This document shows positions 17,526 through 64,000 of a DNA stretch of 64,000 nucleotides, piece after piece. Under the pieces are notes generated by a model. It was not told the DNA's origin. It ran no database searches and was given only the letters and a program-made list of their open reading frames with translations. Numbering within the stretch: position 1 is the stretch's first letter; every line of letters begins with the position of its first letter. The position numbers were made by a program, and so were the translations under genes. Source of the DNA: Cyrtodaria siliqua (taxonomy: Eukaryota; Mollusca; Bivalvia; Adapedonta; Hiatellidae); assembly GCA_037043455.1 (NCBI GenBank), contig JAWPHD010005116.1, positions 1 through 64,000 on the forward strand, in the 5' to 3' direction.

Positions 17526-17559
17526 TATTACATAACATCATTTGATAAATGTTTTAATA

Positions 17560-19423: not shown

Positions 19424-19512
19424 ACTGAACAACAGTTGCAGCCAAAGAGAAAACCAATCTAGGGTACGATCAAAAACCTGAGTGACGAAATATCATGCAT
19501 CTACCTCATGTT
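19424..19512 (+). repeat. segment similar to a coding-like ORF at 33325-33420
   Basis: 'acaacagttgca', 'gagaaaaccaatct', 'gtacgatcaaaaacc' and 'catgcatctacctc' have close counterparts in the same order in the ORF at 33066-33425. A TGA interrupts the frame here. It may be a duplicated exon fragment or an unrecognised repeat. Confidence 0.5.
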
Positions 19513-20188
19513 TTTTTTATTTTCAGTAGGTGCAATCATAGATCCCCAAGAGGTTGTCCAGCTATCACATAAGAGCAAAATGAAGCGGAGTTCCCTGATT
19601 GCTTGTAATTGTGTAAAATATTCAGGAAACCTATCAGACACCTTTATTTCCCGAAGCTTATAGATCAAATCCGCATAACATAAAGGCTGCTATATTCCTA
19701 GTCGCAGAAATGTTGTTTGCTGTTGATTTTTCTGTTGAGATTAGAGCCACGTAAATGCTTTCACCGTAGTTTATCAATGATTTTTTATAATGTTTTTGGC
19801 CGCGCTTTCCATATTGAGTCCTGAATCTTTAAACGTGTTCAATTACACATAATGTGAAACTACATCTTTCTTTGGGAATGGTGTTGTTAAATAAACAGAA
19901 GTCATTGCTAAATATTCGTTTACAGTATTGATATAATAAAGATAAGAATGATAGTTTTGAATGCTTTTCTGCAGGACCTAGAATACACTTAGTTTGAATA
20001 TGCTGGATTACCATCTTGAGATGCCGTAAACAGCAAGATGGCGGCTATGGAATCAGAGAGGAGTAGGGGCGTTTAACACGTACAAGTGTAAACGTAATTC
20101 AATAATTTCAGAATAGTTCTCATTCAAGCAGTAAGTACATGTTTGTCTGTGCTTTTGCGTTTACACCATTTAGTAATAAGTATTTTAT
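19513..20188. other. no gene recognised
   Basis: AT-rich, several short meaningless frames, no clear repeat boundaries. Confidence 0.4.
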
Positions 20189-23960: not shown

Positions 23961-24045
23961 TACAAGGATCTAATAACTCGTCTTGAGTTTGTGCTTCTAT
24001 AAACTCCGCTTTGGATAGGTCACCTACGGCTGCAGGAACCTTTAA

Positions 24046-24486
24046 TTATAAAGCCTTAGCGTGCTTCTGAACCTGCGCTCTAGTCTCTACTGCATTACTT
24101 ATGCTACTCCTAAAATCGGACACTACCGGAAGTACTGAACCTTCTATGTTCCCTATCGATAAATCATACATCGTGTATTTCATACAGAGTGCCTCTGTAG
24201 TCCCCTTAAACAAAGGTGTATCTACATCTATTCCCGCTATTGGCACGTTCTCTACTCGGTTTTGACCACCTCTACCTCTACCGAAATTCCATGGGTTGTT
24301 AATACCTTGGTTCTGACTACCTACATTGTTGTCTACTTTACTATTGTCACTAAAATTGTCTGCGACAGCGGATACTTTCACCGCTTTCCTACACTCATAT
24401 GAAGCATGATTCCCATTACAGTGACGACAACAAATAAAACGTCTACCTATATTGTTACCACTATTGCTACCTCCTATAGCACCCAT
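24046..24486 (-). pseudogene. Gypsy gag knuckle plus protease remnant
   Basis: Residues near the start contain CCRHCNGNHASYECRK, a zinc knuckle of the C-x2-C-x4-H-x4-C nucleocapsid type. A Gly/Asn/Arg-rich linker follows, then a protease-like C-terminal part (AGIDVDTPLFKG..EALCM..YDLSIGNIEG). The aspartic protease active site (D-T/S-G) is missing, so an internal deletion probably removed it. The ORF ends with VETRAQVQKHAKAL. Confidence 0.7.
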
Positions 24487-24501
24487 CGAACTACCTCCAC
24501 C

Positions 24502-25575
24502 TTAATAGCTTCCACTCTGAACTTTCTGTTTATTACTATGATCGTCCCCTTGCCTATCTCTAAAAGTTCTGTCTTTCGACACTGCATTATGAGCTCCACC
24601 TCTAACCTCGGCAAACTGATCTGCTTGTGTTGCCATTTCTTCTACACTAGCTAATTTGTTTTCTTTCAGAAATAAGAACAGATCTCTACTACAAACATTG
24701 ATAGCTGGTGCCGCAACAGGAAATCTTTGAGGCCTTGATAAGTCTGCGCTACCTTCCCTAACTCTAACCACCTATCTAAATATTACTAGACCTACTAACG
24801 AACTGAATAAATGACTCGCCTTTTTCAGGCAAACAAGCTCTAAACTGCTTTCTAAAACCTTCTTCAGTTAACTCAAATCTCTTTAAAAGAGCATCCTTTA
24901 ACTTATCATAGTCAAAAGAATCTGAACTAGGTAATCTAGAAAATACATCTAAGGCCTTACCTCTCAATAACGCACTTAAATGAACTGCCCACATATCCTT
25001 GGTCCATTCCTGTGACTCCGCATAACGTTCAAACCATAACAAGTATCATGTTATCTTTGTCCGCATCAAAGTGTGGTAACTTCGGACCTTTTAACTTCCC
25101 AGAATTACTATCTTTACCTACAGTTTTACTGTCCCCACTATATTTCTTGGCTGCTACCAACTCTAAAACTAACTTATGATATAACGCTGCTTTCTCCATC
25201 TCCATCTCCATCTTAGCCTTAGCTAGTCTGCCATCCGTTTTGAACCTCTCCTGTTCTAACTGCTTTGCTAATCTACTTCCTAATTCTAGCTTCTTCTTAT
25301 CCTCATCTCGCTTCTCTTTAGTTAATCTACCTTCTTCATCTAGCTTCTCTTTAGCTAATCTACTTTCTAATTCTAACTTCTCTGTGTCTAATCTACTTTC
25401 TAATTCTAGCTTCTCCTTATCCGACTCTTGCTTCTCCCTTGCTAATCTACTTTCTAATTCTAGCATCTCTGTAGCTAATCTACTTTCTTCATCTCGCTTC
25501 TCTTTAGCTAATCTACTTACTAATTCTAACCTATCTTTCTCAGTATCTTTTTCCTTAAAGCTGTACAGTCCCTAA
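24502..25575 (-). pseudogene. Gypsy gag, central part (coiled coil and capsid-like region)
   Basis: Three minus-strand frames (25466-25029, 25042-24776, 24771-24502) are pieces of one gag. The upstream piece is a strongly charged heptad-like coiled coil built from repeats of the type LELESRLAKEK. Next comes a capsid-like helical region: LWFERYAESQEWTKDMWA, HLSALLRGKALDVFSRLP, LKDALLKRFELTEEGFR. This layout is common in invertebrate Gypsy gag proteins. Frameshifts at ~25035 and ~24775 break it. Gag would package element RNA in cytoplasmic particles; this copy cannot make a full product. Confidence 0.85.
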
Positions 25576-34025: not shown

Positions 34026-34577
34026 TACTCTTCTTTTAATATACCAATGTCTTAATGTACCAATGAGGTTAGTATAACATTGCTGTTTATAATTCCATAC
34101 TATTTTGAACATCAAGCATAGACCTTTTCAATGGCCACATGTTAAAGAAGGTCACGTTGTGCCATTTTTTCCTACTTGAAATGTTCGTTACCTTATGCCA
34201 GTGGGTATTACAGAGGTCTTTATTCAGATGTGTCTATTCCAGCACCTAAAATACTTTCTCTATGATAAAAACACATAAATAGTTTTTGTAAAAAATGGTT
34301 TGCTATTTAAAATATATACCTATGTTTCAGAAATAAGCATAGAAATTTTAACTTTTTATCTTGTCTTTTACAAAACTTAACAATAGCTATGGAAGCTATG
34401 GAATCCTATCTTGATATTGCTAATACAAGTGCATAGCTGCAATTGTTGTCATCTTAAACATTAAGATGAGTAAAATACAAACTCAGTTATATGCGGCAAT
34501 CAGCATTTTGCAAAATTTTCTATTCTAACGTTGTAGAAGCATCTGCAGCGTCAGATGTCAAATGGTAACAAACCTTT
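34026..34577. other. no gene recognised
   Basis: AT-rich, contains the first of several GTAACAAACCTTTCA-like motifs at 34564. Confidence 0.4.
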
Positions 34578-34646
34578 CAATTTTGACATTGTTAGTTATC
34601 CCCATTTGCATGGGATGGGGATATTCCCCGAGCAACGTCTTATGGG

Positions 34647-35096
34647 GTGTACGTGTATCAACTTATTCGTTTTTCAAGAGCTTGTACTCGAGGTGAAGAC
34701 TTTGATATTCGTAATCTTTGTATAACTAAAAAGCTACTCAATCAGGGTTACCGTTACCATGAACTTCGTAAAACCTTTGCAAACTTTTATTATCGTAACC
34801 CTGATCTTCTTTCCAAATATAATAGGAATTTAAGGACTCTTCCGCGACAAGGACTATCACAACCTGACTTCTATGGTGATGTGATTTATAAACTTCGTAA
34901 GATTCTTGGTCATGATCACTTTCCTAATATCTTTGTTAAAGTTGTTAAAAAATGTATCAAGAGAGGTTATGACCCTATCATTTTGCAACGTACTGCATGC
35001 TTGGTGGTGGACCCTTTTACAGTTCGCCACTATGCTTTCCTCTTTAATTGTACGATGACCGGACAGGCTGTGGACCCTATGATGACACCTACCTAA
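34647..35096 (+). pseudogene. PLE protein, C-terminal 149 residues
   Basis: Contains the post-catalytic C-terminal part of the PLE protein: YQLIRFSRACTRGEDFDIRN, KKLLNQGYRYHELRKTF, PDFYGDVIYKLRKILGHDH, GYDPIILQRTACLVVDPF, ending MMTPT and TAA. The RT catalytic core is absent through truncation. Intact frame and few changes relative to the other copies suggest a fairly recent insertion. No GIY-YIG nuclease follows, unlike canonical Penelope elements. Confidence 0.8.
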
Positions 35097-35122
35097 AGTA
35101 CATTGGGACGGTGGCGTTTGAT
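35079..35122 (+). promoter_or_regulatory. SECIS-like hairpin, copy with mutations
   Basis: Same 44-bp layout as 48314-48357: AUGA at 35079-35082, a helix strand, an A-rich loop overlapping the stop codon, the return strand GGTGGCGT, then TGAT at 35119-35122. One helix pair is lost (ACACC instead of ACGCC) and the small apical stem is disrupted, so this copy is probably inactive. Confidence 0.5.
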
Positions 35123-35610
35123 GTTTGTCTATGATCTTTCTTGGCGTGCCTTTAATGGTTTATTCTTTTATTGCTCTGGCTTCTTCCAAGTCATTGAACA
35201 CCTTCATTGTGACTTTTTAAGCTATTGTCTTTTTGTATTTTATTTACACGAGCATATTTGTGTTTTACTTATATTGCCTATTGATGCTGCCTTGTCGGTT
35301 AGAGATTAGATCATGGCGGGGATTTCTTTATTTACACATTCCTGTTTTAATGGGATTACAGTAGGGTAAGTGTGAGGTTTGGTGCACCCTAGAAGTGGTT
35401 TAAACCCCCAGTGGCCTACTTTGTCACTGACCGTTCCAAGGCGGTAGCCTATTGTCAACCCTTTTGTGTTTGTGATGTCGTTTGCATTTATTATTACTTT
35501 TGCCTTCTTGTTTGTCTGTTTGCGTGTTCGTGTCTGTGTTTTGTCGTTGACTGTCCTCCTTGAATGCTACTTTCCCTGTCCGATCTTTTTATTTTTCTTT
35601 TCCTTTTTGT

Positions 35611-38641: not shown

Positions 38642-41600
38642 ACATGTAACTTGTGTACAATTAGCGTTAATTAAATATAGGTAACACATCTTTCATTATG
38701 AACCTTTCATTTTGCCCTTGCCAGCAGAGCTAGTTTTTACCATTAACTGATATATATCGAAGTATTGTGTTTTCTTGTTGACGAAGAAAATGTTAATGTA
38801 TAAACTATGTACTTTTCTAGTTATTATTGGATGGCTTTTAGTAATTGAAGTAACACACCTTTCAGCTTTAACTCTACCCAATGAACACGTCCTGTAAAGT
38901 TGGACATATTTATTTTCCTATATTCTCTCCGAATATAAGTGCATTTTATCTTTAAATAAATGCTTTTTTTTTACAATTATTAAGCTATAATTAAAGTGCA
39001 ATTTATAAAACGACAGTAACAAACCTTTCAAATAGGCACGTTTCGTGAGTTACAGGATTTGTTTACAGGTTCATAGTGAACTTTAATGTTAGTGAAGACA
39101 TATATATTGACTAATTGTTCATACAAATGTAGTGTTTTGCTTCATGACGTCTACTTAGGGTGTGTTAAGTGCCGAAGACACTCATAAAGAATGCAAATCT
39201 TTATTGAGAATGAGGGATAGTTTTTCGATGGTTTTGGTGACGTTTTAAAACTGTAACTTTTTCTTATGTTCTCGTAGTATATTCATTATTTAGACAAGAA
39301 TTAGCCATGTACGTAGCTACTATCTACATATAGACACTAACTGCCAAACAACAGAGAAAGTAACACATATATTTATAAGGTAAACATGTTGTAATCTTCA
39401 TATAATTCATTTGTGTTTCTTTCCTACTAAGATCGTAGCAAACTGTGTAATCTTACAAGGAAACAACGTATAACTAGAAAATATGCCCATGACACACATC
39501 TGCCCCGATTTCATGCTTCCAGTCACATAAAGAGGTTGTAGTTGAAGGTTAATCCATTTATCTATTTTTGATAGGAGCGTAGTGCTCTCATGAAATGATG
39601 TAACCTCTAAAGCTGTAATTGTGCGAGGAATCGACTAAACGAACAAAGTACTAACAGCTGGTCAATGTTATTTACAAATCATAACAAAGCCTGCAGCTGA
39701 TGTTTCGAACTAGAAGTTTCCAAAAATTCAGTCATTTTTAGTCAAATTTCATGTTAATTTTCGTTAAAATCTTGAAAACCAACGAATAGGAAAACATGCA
39801 TATTCCAAATGCTTACCTTCGGACATGGGCATTTCAGACTACTATAACCTTAAAGCATTTGTTTTTTAAATTGTATTACAGTTCTTTTTTATATTTATAT
39901 TTGAAGATCTTTGCTTCAAAACATCATTCTCTACTCTTATTCAAAAATACAGATGCAGCAAAATGAGGAAGCACATAAAGGTTCATTTCATAATGTTTTA
40001 TATCAAAGCAATCATTAGACTTGACATTAAAAAAAACATATTTGACGAAAATGTCAATATATTTGATACAGTTACAAAATGAAAGTGTTACGTTATAAGT
40101 TAAACAACTCTCGCATATGAACATTGGAAGCTATACGGCTTCAATGTAAACATCATATGTAAATTAGCAAATTGCAACAGTTAGGACAAGGTCAATAACA
40201 CTGACATACTTTTGGTATAAAAATGTTTCTCTCATGGTGTCTGTGAAATAGACTTAAACAAAAACTTCAATGTAAAACCTGAAGGTACGTACGGACGTAC
40301 GATCGGACACTTTCGTGGCGGGACACAGTAACATTGTACAAAATACTACATGTGTCTTTAAATTCAACGAAATAACTTCAGAAACAACATGTTCGATACC
40401 AGTGAAAGGGCTAGACGAACTATTTTTGTAAATGTGTATTCGTATGCCTGTCAAGGCTGGCGCTATGTTTGGTAGTGACGTCAAATACAGTAAGGCTACT
40501 CAGAATTATCTAGCGTGTGTTGCCATATCATATATATATATTATAATGAATGAAGTTATAGCTTATGAAGCGCGCAACATTTATTTTATTTCATCAACCA
40601 ATTTTATAACAAAAATATAATCGATTAAGTACTGCTGAAGTCTAAATAAAATATAATTTTACTTTATTTAATTAATCAGTGTATTACTGAATATATGTGT
40701 GTATTCGTATTCAAATGTGTCTCGTCAATAAACATTAATATGTACTTGAGTTACCATGAGCTGAGAACTTTAACAAACATTATTTCAAACAATTAATATA
40801 GAGGCGACCGTTAATTGTTTAGTATATACATTTTTTCATGAAATATGAAATATGTAGGGCAAATGGTTGAACTTAACAAAATAAATTAACCACCGACAGA
40901 ACATGGACGGAGGAATTGAATGGGCAAACGGTTGAGCGACACATTATATACCCTGACAATTTTGGTTAAGATTTTATAAAATGAATACAAAAGTTGGGTT
41001 TTTACCGACTGTGACTTTGAACATAAGGAACAGGTACGCTAAATGTTAATATTTACCTTATAAGAAAACGCTCTAATCTAAAAGAAACCATCACGTCTAC
41101 ATCGAAAAACTGGCGCTTAACTTCAACAAACTCTCGCTTCGATAAATGTTAACATCAGACAAAATATATATTTTGGCTTTCACATTTAGTTTTGAAGCCA
41201 ACTTCTAAAAGAAACATATTGAAATACAATTGTACTGATCCTACAAATGTATTTTGATGAAATATAAGGCAGTTTAGTTTTTATAAACAAGTTCTTACCG
41301 TATAAACCTACTGATAACATCAAATTCAGATTTCCACATCGTAAACTCCATGTGGCCACTTGAAAGTCGCGTGCATTGTGTAAATGTAAAACACAGACAG
41401 ACCGTGTAGTGTTATGGAGAATAAGTGATCATGATACTTTGCCAAATATGGGTTTCCACATCTACAAACCATCATTTGTCTGTCTACAAACTAGCGTGTT
41501 GATATCTACAAACTCAACTTCGATTCGCACTTTACCTACAATGAGTAGTAAGTAGTACTTGAACTTGAATTTGCGATAACAATGTGATTTGTGTGAATTT

Positions 41601-41849
41601 GTGTGAAGTTAAGAAATCCAGTACATGATATTCTGCTTACTATTTACAGAAACCTTCATAGTCTCCAAAAAGGTCACATATTGGGAAACAAGGTCCTTCT
41701 CCAGCACTGGTGAGGTTAAAATAAGCAATGTTCGTTAGCTCTGCAATCAAAGTATTGATATATAATGCAATTGGACGACAATAACTATATTGTTGGAATC
41801 TTTGTCTACTTACAATTTACGACACCTTAAGAAGGGAGTTCGGAGCCTC
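38642..41849. other. AT-rich, no gene recognised
   Basis: 3.2 kb without a supportable gene. GTAACACACCTTTCA-type motifs recur at about 38682, 38850 and 39016. Short frames near 39924-40124 and 40254-40484 have no protein-like pattern. Confidence 0.5.
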
Positions 41850-41997
41850 CATTCTCAACCCTTTTGTGTTTGTGATGTCTTATTTTTGGCCTTTTATTCA
41901 TCTTTTAATTTGTTCTATGTCTCTGTGTGTGTTTGTGGTTGACTGTCGTCCTTGAATGCTGCTTTTCCTGTTCAGTTTTTATATCTACAGTAGACTG
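41850..41997 (+). mobile_element. PLE 3' tail fragment
   Basis: 'ctcaacccttttgtgtttgt', 'gatgtcttatttttggcctt', 'gtggttgactgtcgtccttg' and 'aatgctgcttttcctgttca' follow the tail to its 3' end. Confidence 0.75.
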
Positions 41998-42374
41998 CCG
42001 CGGAAGCAGATTCGATGCGTGATTCGACGACTTTCAAAATTGATCTTATACAGGCAGTAAGTGCATTGTTATCTGCGTGTTCGCGCTTACATCTCATAAT
42101 TTTTTCAATGAACCCGCAAAATCAATAAGACAGGCATTACAATCAATATACGATGGAAGGCGATACTTATGACCTTTAACTGCCTGATCTTCTTATCGTC
42201 AGTGCCATCAATATTGCCAGTGAGTATCTGAGCGGCAATTTAGAATTATGACATTCTCAATCAGTGGGAATAGGTGTCTTGATTTCAAGATCATGAACTA
42301 TTCTATCATGATTCTAGTAGATTTGTAATACTTATAACATATAACGTTTATTTGTAACTGTTTTTGGACTCGAC

Positions 42375-42729: not shown

Positions 42730-43359
42730 AAAGTTCCGCTTTTCTAACTTCCTAGGCTTGACCAAATACAGAAAGTCATAGTGCTTGTAAGTTGTTTCTT
42801 ATACTGATCTTTACTTACATCTTGTTCTCTAGAAAGCATGTTAATTTCATTTTTACTTGGAGTTGCAAAGAAGATATAATGAGAACAATTTAAGCGGATG
42901 TCTTTAGGAGTTTTGTAGTAAGATTGTGTTTAATAAATTGCACAACAGTTTTATGTATGCCTTGGATAAAATAATTAATAATATCATTTTGATTACGTTC
43001 ACAAACATAATCATCAAAAAACACACTATCTTTTGAGTATCAGAGTCTAGGTCATTCACAGGAATAACTTCGTCATTTGAACATTCTAATATATCTTCTA
43101 AGGAATCTTTATGCTGTTTTGCTATTTTTTCAAGTTTTTGTGACAAGATCTGATACATTGATTGTTTTAAATGTTTAGCAAATAAATAAATATTGTCATA
43201 GTATACTAACGCTTTTAGCAACATGTGAACTATTGTGTTTGTTTTACCGGAACCTGAATTATCACATATAAGCATCCTAAAACAACAGTCTGATCTGAAG
43301 TCGTATACCTGCTTAAAATTACTTTGTTCTACATTTAAATCATAGTTTGGTATTTCCAT
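42730..43359 (-). pseudogene. Polinton packaging ATPase (FtsK/A32-like), frameshifted
   Basis: Starts at an ATG at 43359 (MEIPNYDLN). A Walker A loop is visible as CDNSGSGKTNTI, at about residue 35, where FtsK/HerA-type packaging ATPases have G-x4-GK-T/S. After ~120 residues the frame shifts; in another frame follow a Walker B-like FDDYV, then ERNQNDIINYFIQGIHK, and later PKDIRLNCSHYIFFATPSK, all characteristic of Polinton and virophage ATPases. The family pumps element DNA into capsids. Stops and shifts make this copy inactive. It is divergently oriented to the plus-strand genes, as in many Polintons. Confidence 0.8.
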
Positions 43360-43399
43360 ATAATATATAGCAGATTAATTATTATTATCTAATTATTAT

Positions 43400-43845
43400 G
43401 ATATATATCTAACGTTTATTGCGGAAAAAATAAAAAAAATATTTGGAAAAACATTAGGAACGGAAGAATGTTTTAAAACTGGTCAAGTCAGATATTTTGA
43501 TTTGGTTCAAGTAGTTAAGGATGTACAAAACCCAAAAGAAGCAAATTCACGAAAGAAAACAAAAATACCAGGCAGTCTTTCAACTTTAGAAAAATAGCAA
43601 TGAAATTTATCTTGGAGGATTAAATATAGAACGTAGAAATATCGGTGTTAAATTAAAAACTCTAAAAAAAACTCTAAAAAAACAAATAGGGAAATAACAT
43701 GGCTAAAAACAGACTTGTATAAATAGGAGAAGAATAAAAAAAGGCAACAGCTAATATTGCTTCAATAGAAAAGAGGAATTCAGCTTCTAAAATAAAAGCT
43801 AGACATATTGCTGAACTTAAGTTGAAGAAAAACTTACAGACACCA
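43400..43845 (+). pseudogene. Polinton-associated ORF remnant
   Basis: Readable across several frames: KIFGKTLGTEECFKTGQVRY, then FDLVQVVKDVQNPKE, and later a Lys/Ala-rich helix (NIASIEKRNSASKIKARHIA). A plus-strand protein rich in Lys, with no motif I recognise, cut off by the PLE insertion at ~43845. Confidence 0.35.
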
Positions 43846-43849
43846 TATC

Positions 43850-46332
43850 CACTTGGCCTTAATGACAATATTTATCAAGAAGGAAATATTTCAAAAGACC
43901 TAATATTGACATTTTTTCTATATTTTCTATTCGAAAGCGTAAATCTAGGTCTCACGGTCCTAGGCGTAATGGTCACATCAAACGCAAATCCCGTGTAGTT
44001 ATTTCTGTCGCTGATTTACATACTATTTTTAAACACTCTGGAAAGCACTCTATGCTTTCACGGCTTATCTCTTTGTCCATTTCTTCACTGAAGTTGATCG
44101 ACGAGGAAGCAGACACAAATTTCATTCGTACAGATCCCTTGTATAACACTGCTTCCATAGTTCAAATCTACACATAACATGTTCTCCGACCCCATATTGA
44201 CAAGGAGTCTGATCACGTCAGGCATTTTCTAAAACTACGATATATTAACAAAGAATTGATTTTATTGACATGCCTAGTATTTTTCGAGATGCTCTCATGT
44301 AGTTGATTCTATCCCAAAATATTTCAAAAATTCCGAAAGTCCTGTAATTTGTTATCAGTACAAAACGCTTATTAGAAATTTTATTTTAAACTACAACAAA
44401 ATTGTTTTTGACCTTGATATAGTAAATAACACTCCTAAGGAATGTGAATGTAACACATCAAAATTTTGCTATGCTCCATCACTGATAATGTTGATATTGT
44501 TGATAAACGTATTCGGCATTTGTTTTCGAAAGGTCCTAAATATAGATTACCTTCAACTATTGATTTTAATGCCTGTCGTGCCCAGATCGCCCACTCCATG
44601 GAAGATTTAAGTATAAAATGGTGTCGTAGAGAACATGCGGACCCAAACTCGCTTTCTACTTGGAAAAAGTCAATTCTTAAAATTATAGATACACGTATTA
44701 ACTTTTATAACGCTAACCCCTTTTACTTCCTCCGAGACCTAGGTTTTCCTTTCATAATTTAAAATCGGGAATTCAGGTATTTCATAATAAATTTGTTTTA
44801 GTCCCTGCCTATAAAGCAGCTAAAAATGTAATTACTGTTTGACGCCTACATTACGTCAATGTTTTATCTCTGGAACTCGGCAGCACCAATTCGTATACTC
44901 CAGTACATTCTACTGGGGATGATGTTGTTTCCACACATATCACTCGGTGCACTACTTTCAAGGCTGGGGTAGACGAAAGGCAAACAAAACTGCCTACTAT
45001 GTACTGGATTCCTAAATTACATAAAAATCCATATAAGGCTCCCTTTATTTCGAATTCTAGTGCCTGCACTACAACAAACATCTCCAAACTTTTAACTTCT
45101 TGTCTTATTGCCGTTAAAGATCACGTTAAACGATATTGCGATAAAACTTATGAAAACTATGGGATTAATTTGTTTTGGTCTATCAAAAATTCAGGAGACG
45201 TTCTGGATACAATTTTCAATAAACGTCATGTTTCATCTATAAGCACTTATGATTTCTCTACACTATATACAACTTTACCACATCATCTTATCAAAGACAA
45301 GCTAATTTCTCTTATTAAAACATATCGCTAGAGAAAATGCTACATTTTTGGCCTATAATAATATTAAAGTGTTTTTTTACTGACGGCAGTTTAGACAATT
45401 ATACTATGTATACTTGTTATGAAGTTTGTGAAGCACTCATCTTCCTATTAGATAATATTTTCGTCAGGTATGGAACCAGCGTGTATAGACAAATTGTTGG
45501 TATCCCTATGGGTACGAACTGTGCACCACTTGTCGCAGATTTGTTTTTATTTTGCTATGAAAGAGATTTCATTTTGAGTATTTCACCAGATACCCAGGCA
45601 GATGTTATTGAAGCCTTTAATGATACCTATCGGTATCTGGATGACATATTGAACATTGACAAGCCTTTTTGTCCAACTATGGTTAATACTATTTATCCCA
45701 AAGAACTTCTGCTTAACAAAGCTAATATACCTGATAATAACGCTTTTTTTCTTGATTTAGATCTGTCGATTGAAAATGGTGAAATAATTAGCAAAATCTA
45801 TGACAAGAGAGATGATTTTAATTTTGACATTGTTAATTATCCTCTCTTGGATGGGGATGTTCCTCGAGCAACTTCTTATGGGGTGTATGTGTCTCAACTT
45901 ATTCGTTTTTCAAGAGCTTGTACTCGAGTTGAGGACTTTAGTATTCGTAATCTTTGTATAACTAAAAAGCTACTCAATCAGGGTTACCGTTGCCATAAAC
46001 TTCGTTAAACCTTAGCAAAATTTTATTATCGTAACCCTGATCTTCTTTCCAAATATAAAAGTAATTTAAGGACTCTTCCGCGACAAGGACTATCACAACC
46101 TGACTTCTATGGTGATGTGATTTATAAACTTCGTAATATTCTTGGTCATGATCTCTTTCATACTATCTTTGTTAAACTTGTTAAAAAGTTTATCAAAAGA
46201 GGTTATGACCCTATCATTTTGCAACGTACTGCATGCTTGGTGGTGGACCCTTTTACAGTTCGCCACTATGCTTTCCTATTTCATTGTACGATGACCGGAC
46301 AGGCTGTGGACCCTATGATCACGCCTACCTAA
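43850..46332 (+). pseudogene. PLE reverse transcriptase, decayed; shared in-frame TGA at 44840
   Basis: Pieces in order: LNDNIYQEGNISKD near 43860; a frameshifted N-terminal region to ~44460; IRHLFSKGPKYRLPSTIDF and WCRREHADPNSLSTWKKS (44466-44762); the in-frame TGA before RLHYVNVL; YWIPKLHKNPYKA (RT finger motif) and STYDFSTLYTTLPHHLIKDK (44999-45331); a frameshift; VGIPMGTNCAPLVADLFLF, then YRYLDDILN with the catalytic YxDD (45337-46008); a TAA; the C-terminal VIYKLRNILG...RTACLVVDPF to 46332. PLE RTs are related to telomerase RT and prime on target DNA. Several true lesions show the copy is dead. The TGA at 44840-44842 is special because the sister copy has it too. Confidence 0.8.
44840..44842 (+). 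other. in-frame TGA conserved between PLE copies
   Basis: The codon lies in the context V-TGA-R-L-H-Y-V-N. The minus-strand copy has TGA at the identical position (52014-52012) with the same neighbouring residues. Candidate selenocysteine codon; see the findings. Confidence 0.6.
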
Positions 46333-46911
46333 GGCCAAATGGTATCAATGATCTTTCTTGTCGTGCCCTTAATGGTTTATTCTCTTGTTGCTCTGGCTTC
46401 TGCCGAGTCATTGAGTACCTTCATTGTGGCTTTCTAGGCTATTGTTTTTTGTATTATATATACATGAACATATTTGTGTTTTACTTATATTGCCTATTGA
46501 TGCTGCCTTGTTGGTTAGAGATTAGATCATGGCGGGGATTTCTTTATTTACACTGTCCTGTTTTAATGGGATTACAGTAGGTTAAGTGTGAGGTTTAGTA
46601 CACCCTAGAACCAGTTTAAACCCCCAGTGGCCTTTGTTGCCACTGACCGTTCCAAGGCGGTAGCCGTATTGTCATCCCTTTTGTGTTTGTGATGTCGTTT
46701 GCATTTTTTATTACTTTTGCCTTCTCGTTTGTCTGTCTTGCGTTTTTGTTTTTGTGTTTTGTGGTTGACTGTCGTCCTTGAATGCTGCTTTCCCTGTCCG
46801 ATAGTTTTATCTTTTTTTCTAAGCAGAAGAAATCAAATAAGAAATAGTTATATAATATTTAACTTAACATATCTTAACTTATCTTATGTTTTATCTAACC
46901 TTTATTATACA

Positions 46912-48016: not shown

Positions 48017-48071
48017 TATAATTATACATGAAAAACACAAAAGAATTAATTGATCACTTGACACGACTTGA

Positions 48072-48725
48072 CTCTTCTGCGACAAGGACTATCACAACCT
48101 GACTTCTATGGTGATGTGATTTATAAACTTAGTAAGATTCTTGGTAATGATCACTTTCATACTTTCTTTGTTAAACTTGTTAACAAGTTTATCAAAAGAG
48201 GTTATAACCCTATCATTTTGCAACGTACTGCATGCCCAGTGGTGGACCCTTTTACAGTTCGCCACTATGCTTTCCTCTTTAATTGTACGATGACCGGACA
48301 GGCTGTGGACCCTATGATGACGCCTACCTAAAGCCCATTGGCACGGTGGCGTTTGATGTTTGTCTATGATCTTTCTTGTCGTGCCCTTAATGGTCTATTC
48401 TCTTGTTGCTCTGTCTTCTGCCAAGTCATTGAGTACCTTCATTGTGGCGTACTACTTATATTGCCTATTGATGCTGCCCTGTTGGTTAGAGATTAGATCA
48501 TGGCGGGAATTTCTTTATTTACACTGTCCTGATTTAATGGGATGACAGTAGGGTAAGTGTGAGGTTTGGTGCACCCTAGAACCGGCTTAAACCCCCAACG
48601 GCCTACTTTTGCATTTATTATTACTTTTGCCTTCTTGTGTGTCTGTTTGCGTGTTTGTTTCTGTGTTTTGTTGTTGACTGTCCTTCTTGAATGCTACTTT
48701 CCCTGTCCGATCTTTTTATATTTCT
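48072..48725 (+). mobile_element. 5'-truncated PLE (last ~85 codons plus tail)
   Basis: Opens with the PLE codons RTITTxLLWxx in frame as LRQGLSQPDFYGDVIYKL, ends its ORF at 48331 with MMTPT and TAA, then carries the tail with a small internal deletion, up to 'ctttccctgtccgatctttt'. It lies inside the small membrane protein gene. Confidence 0.85.
48314..48357 (+). promoter_or_regulatory. SECIS-like hairpin at the PLE ORF end
   Basis: AUGA at 48314-48317; helix pairs G48319-U48353 through C48324-G48348, a bulged U48325, then A48326-U48347 to C48328-G48345, ten pairs in all; a UAAA internal loop (48329-48332); a small GCC/GGC apical stem (48333-48335 with 48340-48342) closed by CAUU; then UGAU at 48354-48357. 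The two UGAU quartets face each other as in the non-Watson-Crick core of eukaryotic SECIS elements, and 12 nt separate AUGA from AA. The layout is that of a type-2 SECIS, which recruits SBP2 and directs UGA decoding as selenocysteine. It overlaps the ORF's TAA stop. Confidence 0.6.
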
Positions 48726-49211
48726 TTGTGATTGCATACAAGCGTAATTATAGACTGTGTGGTATTATAAATACAACGTTACAGATTACCAGTGGAATAA
48801 TTGGTTGTGGTGCTGTTCTAGCATTAGTTCCAACAATTCCTGTTTTCGCGGCTGTAGTTGGTGCAGTTCCTCCAGTAGTTGCTGTGTTATTGAGTAAAAG
48901 AAGAAAAACATACTTTGTTGAAAACACATCATAGGAGTTTTAAATAACGTCTTTCATATGTCCAAACAACTATAGGAAAAGGAAATGACGATGAGGTAAT
49001 CATAATTGCCTTTAATAAAATGTTAGAGATTCAAATAAATGATAACTTTACAGAACCTCTGTACATAAAGAAGTATAGGCTGACTGGCCATTAGATCCAA
49101 TCATAATTCTTTTTCATTTTTTTCCAAATCCTATCTTACTTTTCTCTAGGCTTTTGTTTAAATCGGTTTTACTTCTTTTTTTCAATATCATAAATATTTT
49201 GAAAAATGGAT

Positions 49212-49928: not shown

Positions 49929-50494
49929 AGTAGGAAGGGCTATTATTTATTTTTTTAATACACGAAGGTAGAAATTACAACCAGAAAACATAATTCTAAA
50001 CTCTAAATTTGACTCAAAGAAGGCTAAAAATATCGGAAAGGGAAAGCAGCATTCAAGGACGACAGTCAACCACAAAACCCAAAAACAAACACGCAAACAG
50101 ACAAACGAAAAGGCAAAAGTAATAAAAAATGCAAACGACATCACAAACACAAAAGGGTTGACAATAGGGCTACCGCCTTGGAACGGTCAGTGGCAAAGTA
50201 GGCCACTAGGGGTTTAAACCGGTTCTAGGGTGCACCAAACCTCACACTTACCCTACTGTCATCCCATTAAAACAGGACATTGTAAATAAAGAAATCGCCG
50301 CCATGATCTAAACTCTAACCAACAAGGCAGCATCAATAGGTAATATAAGAAAAACACAAATATGCTCATGTAAATATAATACAAAAAAACAATAGCCTAG
50401 AAAGCCACAATGAAGGTACGCAATGACTTGGCAGAAGCCAGAGCTGTAAGAGAATACACCATTAAGGGCCCGACAAGAAAGAACATGGACAAAC

Positions 50495-50538
50495 ATCAAA
50501 CGCCACCGTGCCAATGGGCTTTAGGTAAGCGTCATCAT
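50495..50538 (-). promoter_or_regulatory. SECIS-like hairpin (minus-strand PLE)
   Basis: Exactly the 44-bp layout of 48314-48357, read on the minus strand: AUGA at 50538-50535, UAAA loop over the stop codon, GCC/GGC apical stem, return strand GGTGGCGT, UGAU at 50498-50495. One C-to-T change in the helix turns a C-G pair into U-G, so the helix is preserved. Confidence 0.6.
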
Positions 50539-53020
50539 AGGGTCCACAGCCTGTCCGGTCATCGTACAATTAAAGAGGAAAGCATAGTGGCGAACTGTAA
50601 AAGGGTCCACCACCAAGCATGCAGTACGTTGCAAAATGATAGGGTCATAACCTCTTTTGATAAACTTTTTAACAAGTTTAACAAAGATAGTATGAAAGTG
50701 ACCATGACCAAGAATCTTACGAAGTTTATAAATCACATCACCATAGAAGTCAGGTTGTGATAGTCGTTGTCGCAGAAGAGTCCTTAAATTACATTTATAT
50801 TTGGAAAGAAGATCAGGGTTACGATAATAACATTTTGCAAAGGTTTTACGAAGTTTATGGTAACGGTAACGCTGATTGAGTAACTTTTTAGTTATACAAA
50901 GATTACGAATATTAAAGTCCTCAACTCGAGTACAAGCTCTAGAAAAACGAATAAGTTGAGACACATACACCACAAAAGAAGTTGCTCGGGGAACATCCCC
51001 ATCCAAGAGGGGATAATTAGCAATGTCAAAATTAAAATCATCTCTCTTGTCATAGATTTTGCTAATTATTTTACCATTTTCAATCGAGAGATCTAAATCA
51101 AGAAAAGAAGCGTTATTATCAGATATATTTTCTTTATTAAGCCGAAGTTCTTTAGGATAAATATAATGAACCATAGTTGGAAAGAAAGGTTTGTCAATGT
51201 TCAGTATGTCATCCAGATACCGAGAGGTGTCATTAAAAGCTTCAATAACATCTGCCAGGGTATCTGGTGAAAGACTCAACATGAAATCCCTTTCGTAGCA
51301 AAATAAAAACAAATCTGCGACAAGTGGTGCACAGTTCGTACCCATAGGGATACCAACAATTTCTCTATAAACGGTGGTACCATACCTGACGAAAATATTA
51401 TCTAATAGGAAGATGAGTGCTTCACAAACTTCATAGCAAGTCCACATAGTATAATTGTCTAAACTGCCGTTAGTGAAAAACGCTTTAATATTATTACATG
51501 CCAAAAATGTAGTATTTTCTCTAGCAAATGTTTTTTGAATAAGAGAAATTAGCTTGTCTTTAATAAGATGATGTGGTAAGGTTGTATATAGTGTAGAGAA
51601 GTCATAAGTACTTATTGATGAAACTTGACCTTTATTGAAAATGTTATCAAGAACGTCTCCTGAATTTTTTATAGACCAAAATAAATGAATCCCAGAGTTT
51701 TCATAAGTTTCATCACAATATAGTTTAACGTGATCTTTAACGGCAGTAAGACAAGAAGTTAAAAGTTTGGAGATGTTTGTTGTAGTGCAGGCACTAGAAT
51801 TAAAAATAAAGCGAGCCTTATACGGATTTTTATGTAATTTAGGAATCCAGTACATCGTAGGCAGTTTATTTTGCTTATCGCTTACACCAGCCTTGAAAGT
51901 AGTGCACCGAGAGATATGTGCGGAAACAACATCATCCTCAGTAGAATGTACTGGAGTATACGAATTGGTGCTGCCGAGTTCCAGAGATAAAACATTGACG
52001 TAATGTAGGCGTCAAACAATAATTACATTATTAGCTGCTTTATAGGCAGGAACTAAAACAAATTTATTATGAAATTCCTGAATTCCCGATTTGAGATTAC
52101 GAAAGGAAAACCTAGGTCTCGGAGGTAGTAAAGAGGGGTTAGCATTATAAAAGTTAAAACGTGTATCTATAATTTTAAGAATAGACTTTTTCCAAGTAGA
52201 AAGCGAGGTTGGGTCCGCATGTTCTCTACGACACCATTTTATACTAAAATCTTCAATGGAGTGGGCGATCTGGGCACGACAGGCATTAAAATCAATAGTT
52301 GAAGGTAATCTATATTTAGGACCTTTCGAAAACAAATGCCGAATACGTTTATCAACAATATCAAAATTACCAGTGATGACATGACCTGCTGGAGCATAGC
52401 AAAATGTTGATGTGTTGCATTCACATTCCTTAGGAGTATTAAGTACTATATCAAGGTCAGAAACTATTTTGTTGTAGTTGAAAATAACATTTCTAATAGG
52501 CTTTTTATACTTATAACAAATTGCAGGACTTTCGGAATTTTTGAAATATTTTGGGATAGAATCAACTACATGAGTATCCCGAAATATACTAGGCATGTCA
52601 ATGAAATCAATACCTTTATTAATATATATTAGTTTTAGAAAATGCCTGACGTGATGAGACTCCTTGTCAATATGGGGTCGGAGAACATGTTGTGTGTAGC
52701 TTTGAACTATGGAAGCAGTGTTACACAAGGGATCTGTACGAATGAAAATTTTGTCGGCTTCCTCGTCGATCTTTAGTGAAGAAATAGACTAAGAGGTAAG
52801 CCGTTTAAGCATAGAGTGCTTTCCAGACTGTTTAAAAAAAGTATGTAAATCAGCGACAGAAATAATTACACGCGATTTAGGTTTGATGTTACAATTACGC
52901 CTAATACCATGAGTACTAGATTTACGCTTTCGAATAGAAAATATAGAAAAAATGTCAATATTAGGATCTTTAGAAATATTTCCTTCTTGATAAATATTGT
53001 CATTTAAGCCGAGTGGATAA
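50521..53020 (-). pseudogene. PLE reverse transcriptase; one TAG and one shared TGA
   Basis: Retrotransposon RT of the Penelope-like class. Frame from ~53020: PYPLGLNDNIYQEGN, SIRKRKSSTHGIRRN, a TAG at 52791-52789 (the plus copy has TTG), then open to 50521 apart from the TGA at 52014-52012. In order: HVLRPHIDKESHHVRHFLK; a C-x-C stretch TPKECECNTSTFCYAPAG with GHVITGNF; KGPKYRLPSTIDF; WCRREHADPTSL; the TGA; YWIPKLHKNPYKARF; STYDFSTLYTTLPHHLIKDK; VGIPMGTNCAPLVADLFLF; SRYLDDILN (catalytic YxDD); the C-terminal GYDPIILQRTACLVVDPF; end MMTLT. About 735 codons lie between the TAG and the stop. No GIY-YIG nuclease is visible at either end; an N-terminal one could be missing by truncation. Confidence 0.85.
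52012..52014 (-). other. in-frame TGA, candidate selenocysteine codon
   Basis: The sole interruption of the 735-codon frame from 52788 to 50521, in the context NNVIIV-TGA-RLHYVNVL. It is conserved at the same position in the plus copy. From memory, related proteins from other invertebrates carry Cys (or Trp) here, which would fit a Cys-to-Sec exchange; an alignment is needed. Confidence 0.6.
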
Positions 53021-53030
53021 GGTAAAAGAT

Positions 53031-53806
53031 GTAAATATCAATATATATGATTTAAAATTGCTCCAAAATGGACTTTGAACACATGCCATGAAGATGGGAA
53101 AGAAACGTCACAGAGCAGAACAAACATGCATTTGTTTGGAATATTGTTTCAATAAAACATGCAACATACATAAAAGTACAAACCGCTGTCTATCTTGCTA
53201 TTCTAAAACTTGAAATATTAAATTTGTTAAACAAGTTGTTTGAAGCACATTAAAACAAATTATTCGTCATAAAAATCATTTCTATTAAAAACAAATAAAA
53301 CAATGATACATGATATAACATTCTGATCAATTCATTATTTCTCGATATAACATGATATTAAACATAATAACATGACAAAACCAAATATAAATTTCCATAA
53401 ATCCGGATTTCACTCAGGGCCACCAAGAAGTGGCATAGAATGCCATTTTTAATAGAGGAACGTATGCCACAAGAAAGCAGAAATTCATCAACACTGTAAA
53501 ACAAACAATGAAATAAAATTACTTTTTTTTACTTCAATTTTATAAACATTCGTCGTGTGAGCCGAAGAATACATTTGTGCTCATTTTTTATTGTGTTGCT
53601 AGGAAGAATACATACAGAACCGGTGACAATAATATTGTAGAATTTATATTCATCCTTCCCGATAATATCGGCCATCAATTTGTCGGTAGAAAAACAGCTA
53701 ATATAACTCCTGGCCTCTTGGTTGTCGCTTATAGCTACGTTGAAGGCAATACGCGACCAATATATCAAAACTATAAACTTCCTGACTTTCCGCGATTAAG
53801 GAACAT
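53031..53806. other. no gene recognised
   Basis: Between two PLE copies. A 78-residue plus frame at 53577-53813 (NIVEFIFILPDNIGHQFVGR and further) has fair composition but no known motif; it may be Polinton remnant. Confidence 0.35.
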
Positions 53807-55060
53807 ATTGTAAAATATTGCGGAAAGAACTCAGGAATCAATCTGTTTTGGTCTATCAAAAACTCTGGAGAAGTTATGGACAAACTACGGTGTAAGCATG
53901 TTCATGCATCTTCTCTAACCACCTACGCTTTTCTACTTTGTATACTACACTACTACATAATCTTATCAAAGGAAAATTGCTTCAGCTTATTCAGAAGACA
54001 TTTGCTAGAGAAGGTACAACTTTTCTAGCTTGTTAATAATGGCTTTCTTTACTAACGCCCCCATTGATAAGTATAATTTGTGGACTTGTACTGATGTTTG
54101 TAGAGCCTTATCTTTTCTTCTGGATAACATCTTTATAAGATACGGTAAAACTATTTACCGCCAGGTTGTTGGTATTCCTGTGGGTACTAACTGTGCGCCA
54201 CTTGTTGCAGATTTGTTTTTGTACTGCTACGAAAGAGATTTTATGTTGAGTTTGTCACCTGCTAGCCAGGGTGAGATTATTGATGCCTTTAATAATACTT
54301 CTCGGTATCTTGATGACATACTCAATATTGATAATCCGTTTTTTTGCTCATATGGTTACTGACATTTATCCACCAGAGCTCATGTTGAATAAAGCCAACA
54401 GTTCGGATACAGTAGCAGCATTTCTCGATCTTCATCTCTCGATTTCAAATGATTGTATTCATACTAAAATCTATGATAAGAGAGATGATTTCATTTTAAC
54501 ATCGTTAATTATCCACACCTGGATGGAGATGAACCTCGTGCTACCTCATACGGGGTATCTCCCAGCTCATTCGATTTGCTAGAGCGTGTAATGATGTTAT
54601 AGACTTCAATGATCTAAATCAAGTTATTACAAGTAAACATCTTCAGCATGGTTTTCGTTATCACAAACTACGTAGATCTTTCTCTAAATTCTACCGCCGC
54701 AACGAGGGCCTGCTGGAAAAGTACAACACCAACCATAAAACACTTCTGAGACTAGGCATATCACAACCCTCATTTTATGGAGATGTGGTCTATAAACTTC
54801 GAAAGTTAAAGGGGTCTGACGGGTTTCCTGACCGCTTTACAAATGTAATCAGGAAGTTCATCAGAAAAGGACATAACCCTTTGGTTTTACAGCGCACTGC
54901 ATGATTACCTCTACAGTCAGTCATTACGCTTCACTTTTCGCTTGTGACTGGACTACCTCTTGGGACTCTATGATTGCTCCTACTGAAACCCCAACTAAGG
55001 GAGGTGGTTGCATGAGCTTTCGTCCCTCGTGTCGTACCCTAGATTGGTTTTCGCTTTAGC
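53807..55060 (+). pseudogene. PLE reverse transcriptase, second family, decayed
   Basis: Pieces: GINLFWSIKNSGEVMDKLR near 53840; a frameshifted finger region; DVCRALSFLLDNIFIRYGKT, VGIPVGTNCAPLVADLFLY, SRYLDDILNIDNPFF with the catalytic YxDD (54030-54362); YPPELMLNKANSSDTVAAFL, LHLSISND, KIYDKRDDF (to 54582); then KLRKLKGSDGF and FIRKGHNPLVLQRTA near 54790-54900. The protein is ~60-70 percent like the first family by eye. The end of the frame differs (SMIAPTETPTKGG onward). Multiple frameshifts make it inactive. Confidence 0.8.
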
Positions 55061-55460
55061 TGCAACTACTATGGTTGTTCAGTACGATTCTGGATACATC
55101 CTGAGATGCTTATTATTTCGTATGTGGTTCTTTAGTTAGTTTCTCTGGATGTGGACTTTATTGTTAGAGAATTCCTTTTGATGGGATGTAGTTTTGTTTA
55201 CACTGTCTTGTCTACTTGGGCGCTGAAGACAGGATAATAGCGAGGATTGTGCTCATATAAAATCGATTCAAGCTAACCAGTAGGCATTATTGCCTACTTA
55301 CCGTTCCAAGTCGGTAACCCTGTCTTCACCACCCTTTCTTTTGTTTTTTGTCTCTTTCATTGTATTATCAAGTCCCTGGTAGCAGTGCAGTGCGGACCTA
55401 CGATGACATTGCGTTCGGATGCTGTGGTTTCTATAGGACCCTATATCTCATTTTTTCAGC
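53807..55460 (+). mobile_element. second-family PLE, 5'-truncated
   Basis: RT-coding remnant to ~55060 followed by a ~400-bp tail that differs from the first family except for a short 'ccttattgcctac..ccgttcc' core. The same tail occurs alone at 30205-30420. A distinct, older-looking PLE lineage. Confidence 0.8.
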
Positions 55461-56696: not shown

Positions 56697-57010
56697 TGTT
56701 TACTTATATTGACTATTAATGCTTCCTTGTTGGTTAGGGAATAGTTCATGGAGGGGATTTCTTTATTTACACTGTCCCGTTTAACTGGAATGACAGTAGG
56801 GTAAGTATGGGGCTTGGTGCACCCTAGAACCTTTTTGCCACTGACCGTTCCAAGGTGGTAGCCCTTCTGTCAACCTTTTTTGTGTTTGTGATTCATATGC
56901 CTTTAGTATTTCTATTGCCATTCTTGTTTGTCTTTTTGCGTCTTTTTGGGTTTACTGTTTTCCGTGAAAGCTACATTTCCTGTTCGACTTTTATGCTTAC
57001 TTTTACGGTG
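56697..57010 (+). mobile_element. PLE 3' tail inside the polymerase zinc finger
   Basis: 'tttacttatattgactatta', 'catggaggggatttctttat', 'aatgacagtagggtaag', 'actgaccgttccaaggtggt' and 'cctgttcgacttttatgc'. The word GTGT stands at both edges (before 56701 and after 57008), a possible 4-bp target duplication. Confidence 0.8.
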
Positions 57011-58284
57011 TATCCCAACAGAAAAAAGTTTTAAAACAACATGAACGTGATTGCCTTTCACTTAACGGTAAACAAGCACTAAACATGCCAGAAAAAAATG
57101 AGAATGTTCAGTTTAAAAACTATGATAGACAATTAATGGTGCCCTTTATTATATATGCTGACTTTGAAGCAATAACTGACGACATTTCTTTAGCTCTTGG
57201 TAATCCTAAATTATTATACACAGAAGCATATCAAAAGCTTACTGATAGTGGTTACGGGTATAAAGTCGTTTATTGTTATGATGGTACATATTCTAAACCA
57301 GTTGTGATGTTTATAAGTTTATAGAAACATGGTAGTAGAAGAAAAATATTATAGGAAAACTATGTTGCAACATTTAAAAAAAAGATTTAACAATGACAGA
57401 ATCACAAGAAAAAGAATTTAGGATATCTAAAAAAAATGTCATATTTGTAATAAGAATTATGTGAACGGAGACAAGATGGTTAGAGAACATTGTCACATAA
57501 GTGGAACGTTTAGAGGAAGTGCTCATGAATCGTCTAATCTTAATTTCAGATTGACTAGAAAAATACCTGTTGTATTTCATAACTTAGGAGGTAATGATTC
57601 GCGTTTTATAATGCATCACATTGGAAAGTTTAAAAAGAAATATATGTTATACCAAATAACATGGTAAAGTATATGGCTTTTATGTTAGGAAAATATTTGG
57701 TCTTTATTTATAGTTTTCAATTTATGTCTCAATCACTTGATAATTTAGTAAAAACATCCCATCATGTACATATCTGTCACAAGCGTATCCTGGCGAAAAG
57801 TTAGAGTTAGTAAAAAGAAAAGTTTTTTATCCTTATGATTACATGTATAGTTTTAAACTCTTTAAAGAAACTAAATTACCGGACAAAGATAGCTTTTATT
57901 CTAAGTTAAATGATGAACATATTTCAGATGTAGATTATGATCATGCTAAACAAATATGTAAAGCATTTAATATTAAAGCATAGGAGAATATCATGACCTA
58001 AATATTAAAACTGATGTTCTGTTACTTGCAGACGTTTTTGAAAACTTTAGAAAGATGTGTTTTGAGTATTACAAATTAAAGCCTTGCCACTGCTTTAGTA
58101 GACCCATATTAGCTTGGGATGCATGATGCATATCTTAGGATGACTGGAGTTCAGCTTGATTTAATAACCGATATTAATCAAATCTTTTCATAGAAAAAGG
58201 ACTAAGACATGTAAGAGGTGGAATTAGTTATACTTCAAATAGATGTTCAAAGGCTAACAATAAATATTTGAAAAATTATGACGG

Positions 58285-62640: not shown

Positions 62641-62717
62641 GATCATGATTTATTTCCGCATTTTATGGTGTAAAAATTATAAAAATGGTTAAATTAAAAT
62701 CTTCTATATAATTATAT

Positions 62718-63497
62718 AATGTAGCAATACGAAGACTAGGGGCGATATGTATATCAGACAAACAATGTAGCAATAAGTAGGCTATTTACGATCTGTATCT
62801 CAGACATACAATGTAGCACATAAGCAGACTATGGGCGGTCTGTATATCAGCCATGCAATGTAGCAATAACAAGACAATGGCCGATCTGTATATCAGACAA
62901 ACAATGTAGCAATGAGCAGACTATGGGCGATCTGTATATCAGACGAACAATGTAGCAATAAGAAGACAATGGTTGATCTGTATAACAGAGATATAATGTA
63001 GCAATAAGAAGCCTTTGTGAGATATGTATATCAGACATACAATGTAGCAATAAGAAGACAATTGGCGGCCTGTTTATCAGACATATAATGTAGCATAAGA
63101 ATACTATGGGCGATCTGTATATCAGACAAACAATGTAGCAATAAAAAGACTATGGGCGATCTGTATATCTGACATACAATGTAGCAATAAGAATACAATG
63201 GGCGATCTGTATATCAGACAAACAATGTAGCAATAATTAGGCTATTTACGATATGTATATCTGATATACAATGTAGCAATAAGAAAACTATGAGCGATCT
63301 GTATAACAGACATACAATGTAGCAACTATGGGAGATATGTATATCAGACATACAATTTAGCACTAAGACGAATATGGGCGATCTGTTTATCAGATATGCA
63401 ATGTAGCAATAAGAAGACTATGGGCGATCTGTATATCAGACATACAATGTAGCAATAAGACGACAACGGGCGATCTGTATATCAGACATACAATTTA
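62718..63497 (+). repeat. 46-bp tandem array, ~17 units
   Basis: The unit reads roughly 'acaatgtagcaataagaaga' + 'ctatgggcgatctgtatatc' + 'agacat', 46 bp, with point changes and occasional deletions between units. No spacer diversity and no long conserved palindrome. Confidence 0.95.
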
Positions 63498-64000
63498 CGA
63501 GGGGCGTTCTTTATATAATGCAACTATGGTCCTAAAATTTAATTATGGTCCATTGTTGTAGTTATTGATACGGATTATGTTAAAATGAACATTCCCCCAT
63601 TAATTTATCAAGTTTCAGATACTTCCATCCAATAAAAAATGTGTTTTAAGGGCATTTTTGTAAGACATGTAAATGATACTGAACACGCCAAAAACGGAAT
63701 GTTGTCAGTGCGACAAAATGTAGCTTAAATTTTATCATAAAAAAGCAAAGAGCCACTTCAGGCTTTAACATTTTTGGAGCGGTTTAACTAAAATTGTTGA
63801 TTTTATATTAAATCTTTAGAGTAGCCTTTCAATTCTTACCTATGTATTTAAAACCATTTTCCGTCATATCTTCAAACTGATTTTGACTATAATTTTTATT
63901 GGAATTTGATATTTTCATGACTTTTATATTTGCAAGAAAACGGCATTTCTTGCCTTGGACTATATCGATGTTTTGTATTGGAAACATCGTTTACGTAATG
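63494..64000 (+). mobile_element. possible mariner-like element, left end
   Basis: Directly after the 46-bp array comes 'ttacgaggggcgttctttat', which resembles the 'tacgagggg.rttc' terminal repeat of some mariner elements. The rest to the window edge is AT-rich with no clear transposase frame. The other end is outside the window. Confidence 0.35.

Follow-up and report, generated by a model that had tools for sequence, protein, structure and literature searches.

A form-2 SECIS hairpin overlapping the stop codon of Naiad-type Penelope-like retrotransposons predicted to encode selenoproteins in the bivalve Cyrtodaria siliqua

The window analysed here, a stretch of 64,000 nucleotides from the genome of the bivalve Cyrtodaria siliqua (assembly GCA_037043455.1, contig JAWPHD010005116.1, positions 1 to 64,000, forward strand), contains copies of a retroelement belonging to two families, referred to as A and E. 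The focal copy, copy C (48070-48728, + strand; family A; 86-88% identical to copy A by blastn), is 5' truncated and retains the end of the C-terminal ORF, a SECIS hairpin and the 3' UTR. Copy A (50015-53023, - strand; family A) lacks the endonuclease part and carries a TAG upstream of its long frame. This open frame (50521-52788, - strand) spans 755 amino acids, with a CxC motif (ECEC) and a reverse transcriptase (RT) giving telomerase fold matches, and it includes one in-frame TGA (52012-52014, - strand), the proposed selenocysteine (Sec) codon, which corresponds to U259 of P0001, the copy-A protein. The same TGA is found at 44840-44842 (+ strand) in copy B (43842-46818, + strand; family A), from which the 3' half of the hairpin has been lost. 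Copy D (34575-35600, + strand), also of family A, is 5' truncated, whereas copy E (53753-55361, + strand), identified by tblastn, blastn and its relatives in the genome, represents the second, divergent family and has a broken frame. Further remains are a decayed SECIS of another family-E copy (19482-19547, - strand; 42.5 bits with the covariance model R1 described below), a decayed fragment of yet another related copy (41585-42177, - strand; tblastn 2e-13) whose translation shows TGA at the first Cys of the CxC motif (PTD-U-EC), and a decayed element piece at 17630-18535. The copies in the window are truncated or broken and carry frameshifts and stops.

Several other features were observed in the window. 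An ORF at 42904-43374 (- strand) resembles a Pox_A32-like ATPase (24 bits) and another at 56800-57324 (+ strand) reads by eye like a protein-primed DNA polymerase B; both are possibly remnants of Polinton/Maverick elements. Pieces of a Gypsy-like LTR retroelement lie at 22330-25571 (- strand), with an SH3_Tf2-1 match under the cut-off and integrase-like and gag-like frames recognised by eye. A frame at 5708-6304 (+ strand) resembles by eye the terminal exon of a seven-helix receptor (NPILYNVMSKRYREAF) and has no Pfam match, and a tandem array with a 46-bp period occupies 62714-63547. Two long palindromes, at 5173-5322 and 17410-17538, gave a microRNA-like score under the cut-off, and our guess is that they are probably foldback transposons.

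A preliminary description made from the sequence alone had labelled the element a PLE. It is indeed Penelope-like, but the order of its domains, with the endonuclease N-terminal, is of the Naiad type and not that of canonical Penelope. The N-terminal GIY-YIG-like endonuclease is recognised by order and motif and is weak by Pfam score: PF01541 matched the N-terminal part of the genomic locus L028 with 20.1 bits (E 8e-4), under the cut-off of 22.6, and no PF01541 match was obtained with the full-length L028 protein as query, no GIY-YIG match with the family-E stretch, and no Pfam match at all, GIY-YIG included, with P0001. The database relative P0243 is listed with PF01541, its endonuclease being N-terminal to the RT and aligning in the same order as in the element. 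A CxC motif is located between the endonuclease and the RT, reading ECEC in family A and UDC in family E. The twelve best PDB fold matches of the RT model (mean pLDDT 63.6) are all telomerase, with TM-scores of 0.2-0.3 and a best E-value of 7e-4, only one match being at or below 0.001. An N-terminal endonuclease followed by CxC and a telomerase-like RT is what we take to be the plan of Naiad Penelope-like elements.

The segment at 48314-48357 (AUGAUGACGCCUACCUAAAGCCCAUUGGCACGGUGGCGUUUGAU) had been described as a type-2 SECIS-like hairpin. The segment does have an AUGA on the 5' side, a UGAU on the 3' side, an AAA loop 12 nt past the AUGA and a 3-bp apical stem closed by a CAUU loop, and the form-2 core (AUGA/UGA quartet and, about 12 nt beyond it, an A-rich loop) is seen in the sequence as well as in the Rfam alignment; the 3-bp apical mini-stem occurs in both families. 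A helix of ten pairs with one bulge had also been proposed, of which the bulged U was borne out, but RNAfold gives nine pairs instead of ten. The fold of this segment (-15.1 kcal/mol) was equalled by 4 of 200 shuffled sequences (z -2.29), so that folding energy alone is modest evidence for the hairpin. A scan of the 64-kb window against 4227 Rfam families rendered a SECIS_1 match at 48306-48366 (+ strand) with 36.0 bits against a curated cut-off of 35 (E 0.0016, referring to that scan), the sole Rfam match in the window at the gathering threshold. At E-values up to 10, three additional SECIS_1 matches appeared in the window: at 50486-50546 (- strand; 32.2 bits) in copy A, where a C-to-U change preserves a U-G pair, as had been described for the minus copy; at 54962-55026 (+ strand; 27.0 bits) in copy E, a second-family SECIS absent from the preliminary description; and at 35071-35131 (+ strand; 25.3 bits) in copy D, whose hairpin is partly decayed, again as described. 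All four matches coincide with the 3' ends of element copies of a single kind. The observation of the hairpin is therefore confirmed, and its interpretation as a SECIS is supported, the Sec function being predicted.

The window lies in an assembly of 2.88 Gb, whose cox1 is 80% identical to that of Panopea and 74-75% to those of Novaculina, Ensis and Solen, in keeping with a bivalve host close to geoducks and razor clams. Searches of this assembly rendered at least 59 matches to the copy-A protein, at least 93% identical, and at least 150 matches to copy E. The SECIS_1 cut-off was reached by 16 of the 20 family-A loci given and missed by the other 4, while for 20 family-E loci 9 were over the cut-off, 8 scored 28.5-31.8 bits and 3 had no match at E-values up to 1. 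The low covariance-model score that had been named as counter-evidence was thus not found, scores being over the cut-off at the focal site and in many, not all, of its relatives. MAFFT placed all the gaps between families A and E in one place, misaligning the 3' arm, and for this reason a covariance model of one family was used against the other. The model R1, built from 12 family-E sequences with their structure, matched all of the 29 loci of family A to which it was applied, with scores of 18.7-35.6 bits and E-values from 3e-8 to 0.012, and in the window it also matched copies A, C and D but not B, whereas R2, built from the same sequences without structure, gave matches at E-values up to 10 in only 6 of these 29 loci, one of them at a second copy, with a best score of 15.9 bits. 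Within family E, R1 found the SECIS in 29 of 30 loci, 11 of which had also helped to build it, L054 alone being without a match.

Compensatory changes were apparent between the two families. In an alignment of both (A4), which is biased towards the structure because it was fitted to it, 96.2% of the cells are paired, against 26-50% when the partners are slid, and six pairs show changes in both partners, where shuffles average 1.8 and 2 of 500 of them reach six. A comparison by hand of L018 (family A) with L040 (family E) showed both partners changed in four pairs and a single partner in two, pairing being kept in each; one apical pair appears broken in this table because L018 folds in a register shifted by one. 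The four double-sided changes, all outside the apex, have a joint chance of about 0.004 when the broken pair is left out, and the version with the focal copy gives 0.0006, counting an apical pair that is not to be relied on. Primary identity between the families is 46/60 in the hairpin, 81/120 in the coding flank and 31/40 in the next 40 nt downstream. What sets the hairpin apart is therefore its pairing and not its letters, which are conserved above the coding flank and no more than the 40 nt that follow. Neutral drift of the helix, the other outcome named in advance as refuting, is not what these data indicate: both families keep the pairs with changes on both sides, and the model with structure far outperforms that with sequence only.

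The hairpin had been said to lie at the end of the same ORF that contains the shared TGA, and the genome copies bear this out. At least one in-frame TGA was present in all 59 family-A matches listed. In a sample of 30 family-A loci, copy A among them, codon 259 is TGA in 30/30, and in the endonuclease region (NVD-U-RTSHVIYVLT-U-NAPLCGIQYVGQT) both U codons are TGA in each of the 18 loci with the 5' probe aligned (codon counts refer to loci whose probe aligned). Family E was tallied likewise, on those of 33 given sequences with an aligned probe: TGA occupies the first Cys of the CxC motif in 8/8, site 259 in 9 of 10 loci (the exception, L046, has TCA) and site 346, a Cys position, in 17 of 19, with one AGA and one gap; both endonuclease UGAs also occur in the single family-E copy read further 5'. 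By these tallies, UGA is used at three sites in family A and at five in family E, the latter including all three of the family-A sites. The family-A probe reads TGT at site 346 in L033, from a match outside the family-E copy of that locus (bases 101-221), and in L052 its alignment ends at the codon of site 346, which also reads TGT. Since copies share ancestry, locus counts within a family are not independent, and the contrast between A and E counts as one comparison per pair.

Relatives in databases carry Cys at these positions. Among the 120 relatives listed, of 1140 found, site 259 is covered by 28, with Cys in 19 and Trp in 9, and 116 of the 120 carry Cys at site 346, a UGA site in family E only. 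Cys also occupies site 259 and the two endonuclease sites in a pair of distant relatives (27-28% identity), one of which is listed with the GIY-YIG domain, N-terminal to its RT. In-frame UGA codons thus align with Cys, as is characteristic of selenoproteins. Of the 120 listed relatives, 89 begin at or after query position 261, and 22 of these exactly at 261. Starts two codons past the UGA site are what gene callers would give if a UGA were present there, and this may be the case, short contigs possibly explaining some of them; selenoproteins of this kind would be split at each UGA by gene prediction. The nine relatives with Trp at 259 have Trp also at the CxC site in four cases and Cys in two, the other three not reaching it. 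Trp at two Cys/Sec sites probably reflects TGA translated with genetic code 4, TGG being also possible. The relatives P0003, P0004, P0006 and P0010, in which W is printed at two such sites simultaneously, illustrate a trap for protein databases. Two other relatives, P0099 and P0069, are element fragments labelled as bacterial (Thiodiazotropha, Campylobacter), most likely animal DNA contaminating bacterial assemblies. Two scans of viral contigs found no relatives.

Selection on the protein was estimated separately upstream and downstream of the UGA. Comparison of copy A with the family-E locus L046 (718 codons) gives a dS of 2.34 and a dN/dS of 0.11; the part downstream of the UGA has a dN/dS of 0.12, and in the upstream part, where dS is saturated, pN/pS is 0.31. 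Because L046 has TCA at site 259, the comparison was repeated with four TGA-bearing E copies. Downstream of the UGA, dN/dS was 0.10 for L048, 0.11 for L043 and 0.11 for L040, and for L037, with dS saturated, pN was 0.26 and pS 0.77. Upstream, L048 (252 codons) gave pN 0.23 and pS 0.79 and L043 (110 codons) pN 0.26 and pS 0.78, pS being saturated in both, while L037 and L040 had too few codons for this comparison; in the three E copies with at least 110 upstream codons, pN ranged from 0.23 to 0.26 and pS, saturated, from 0.77 to 0.79. Over the whole stretch, dS between the families is 2.3-2.4 or saturated and dN/dS, where computable, 0.10-0.11, including E copies that keep the UGA. These values indicate that the protein has been conserved both before and after the UGA while silent sites drifted almost to randomness, and that the UGA has persisted in most copies of both families. 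Within family A, copy A compared with four other loci gave dN/dS of 0.18-0.89, a range that would be expected of copies that are young and in part decaying.

The overlap of the hairpin with the stop codon, pointed out in the preliminary description for the TAA at 48329-48331 of copy C, extends to the whole family-A sample: residue 755 is followed by TAA in 30/30 loci, each time within the SECIS loop. The family-A frame ends in ..DP-M-M-T-P-T-stop or close variants (VM or LM for MM), and the SECIS straddles this end, so that its 5' arm also encodes the C-terminus, while the UAA falls within the A-rich apical loop. In family E the frame ends in ..T-L-UGA in the 11 of 30 loci in which it is unbroken to the end, this UGA being part of the AUGA core of the SECIS (54971-54973 in copy E). 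A C-terminal motif similar to MMxPT is found in 27 of the 120 listed database relatives; Met-Met plus three codons and a stop corresponds to the spacing of the SECIS loop, which suggests that the same overlap may be present in other species. This overlap is unusual and may be new. No paper on selenoprotein retroelements or on SECIS elements overlapping a stop was present among the literature matches listed, whose coverage leaves out most subscription papers, so that the overlap may have been reported there. A tested precedent for a SECIS in a coding region is that of fowlpox virus GPX4 (Mix, Lobanov and Gladyshev 2007; PMC8310308, PMC6769590). Both systems have a eukaryotic SECIS within translated sequence, whereas in the clam element, a retrotransposon and not a virus, coding sequence extends into the 5' arm only, with the stop placed inside the SECIS. 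With the stop built into the SECIS, in two registers in the two families, it is conceivable, though we hold it rather doubtful, that each ribosome finishing translation melts the hairpin, coupling termination to Sec decoding upstream. If so, the element would speculatively have a self-limiting expression switch, in which decoding by the following ribosomes is limited, and the UGA of the SECIS core would double as terminator in family E. With such a SECIS in place, Cys codons could also ratchet to UGA, leading to the three sites of family A and the five of family E.

The host genome contains components of the Sec machinery. A tRNA-Sec was detected with 79.7 bits, seven loci being over the cut-off, compared with 14 of 14 control genomes matching at a loose E-value and 5 over the cut-off; the anticodon is TCA in the four loci examined. 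Ten weaker tRNA-Sec loci accompany the seven, the gene being multicopy or having pseudogenes. The fourth domain of eEFSec was found with 123 bits, and none of the control genomes had a match. A scan of the whole genome with RF00031 rendered no matches and is uninformative, because the controls likewise returned none. In the mechanism that we envisage, a single protein consisting of an N-terminal GIY-YIG-like endonuclease, a CxC linker and a telomerase-like RT would be translated with its in-frame UGAs read as Sec. The SECIS would recruit the host SECIS-binding protein, eEFSec would deliver Sec-tRNA at UGAs located, in family A, roughly 1.5 to 2.8 kb upstream, and the full-length enzyme would mobilise the element. 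We infer that Sec is really inserted and that copies may be, or may recently have been, mobile through this insertion.

On the sequence evidence taken together, we consider it very probable that the hairpin is a true eukaryotic SECIS of form 2, carried by a Naiad-type Penelope-like retrotransposon whose in-frame UGAs would be read as Sec. It could instead be a chance hairpin over a pseudogene, the TGA being a nonsense mutation inherited from a dead master copy and the likeness to a SECIS either accidental or a by-product of conserved C-terminal codons. The frameshifts and stops of the window copies, the absence of the 3' half of the hairpin in copy B, a folding z-score of only -2.29 and a primary sequence kept no better than the following 40 nt are all compatible with such a situation. 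It is however largely contradicted by the same TGA codon being kept in two families between which synonymous sites are close to saturation and dN/dS is about 0.1, and it would leave unaccounted for both the recurrence of UGAs at sites that are Cys in relatives and the 3' arm, which lies outside the frame and yet pairs with the changed 5' letters; we regard it as very unlikely.

It can also be the case that the UGA is recoded without Sec, by plain stop readthrough or by a suppressor inserting Trp, Cys or another residue, with some other role for the hairpin. The Trp at site 259 in 9 of 28 listed relatives, which could be encoded by TGG, would fit this, but four of these nine also have Trp at the CxC site, as would follow from translation of TGA with code 4. 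The use of UGA at five separate Cys sites, a form-2 SECIS at the end of the frame, and a genome with tRNA-Sec and eEFSec also speak against recoding of this sort, to which we give just as little credence. Least probable of all, to the point of being negligible, is that the hairpin comes from a host selenoprotein gene captured by the element or adjacent to it. The SECIS could be an ancient acquisition from a host gene, but for the present-day copies a captured or adjacent host gene is refuted by the fixed place of the hairpin within the element, since it occupies the same position, on the element's own stop, in dispersed copies (29/29 A loci and 29/30 E loci).

If the element does depend on Sec as predicted, its spread would be tied to the selenium metabolism of the host. 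Two families in one genome, with three common and two extra UGA sites and a SECIS placed on the stop, provide a system to test the evolution of multi-Sec decoding, whether Cys-to-UGA change is a one-way ratchet, and whether a SECIS can work while it is translated and terminated upon.

Canonical Penelope and Poseidon elements encode a GIY-YIG endonuclease and an RT, with the endonuclease C-terminal, according to PMC11167929, which also cites Craig, Yushenova, Rodriguez and Arkhipova (2021, Mol Biol Evol 38:5005). The clam element has both domains in common with them, but its endonuclease is N-terminal. Assignment to canonical Penelope/Poseidon was rejected, as no C-terminal endonuclease is present and just nine residues follow FNCTMTGQ before the frame stops at the SECIS.

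Among host proteins, multi-Sec selenoproteins of the SELENOP type have several UGAs decoded from a 3' SECIS. Decoding of several UGAs in this way is predicted for the clam element as well, while SELENOP differs from it in being a secreted host protein with its SECIS in the 3' UTR. Closest to the present case are the Naiads that Craig et al. reportedly described in 2021, which are said to resemble this element in having an N-terminal endonuclease, a CxC linker, a telomerase-like RT, several in-frame UGAs and a bivalve host. Naiads of spiders and clams reportedly evolved independently to encode selenoproteins with multiple selenocysteines, and the kind of element found here is therefore already known. 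To that kind, the window adds a second family in the same genome, a contrast of three against five predicted Sec sites, paired changes in the hairpin, and a SECIS that contains the stop codon.
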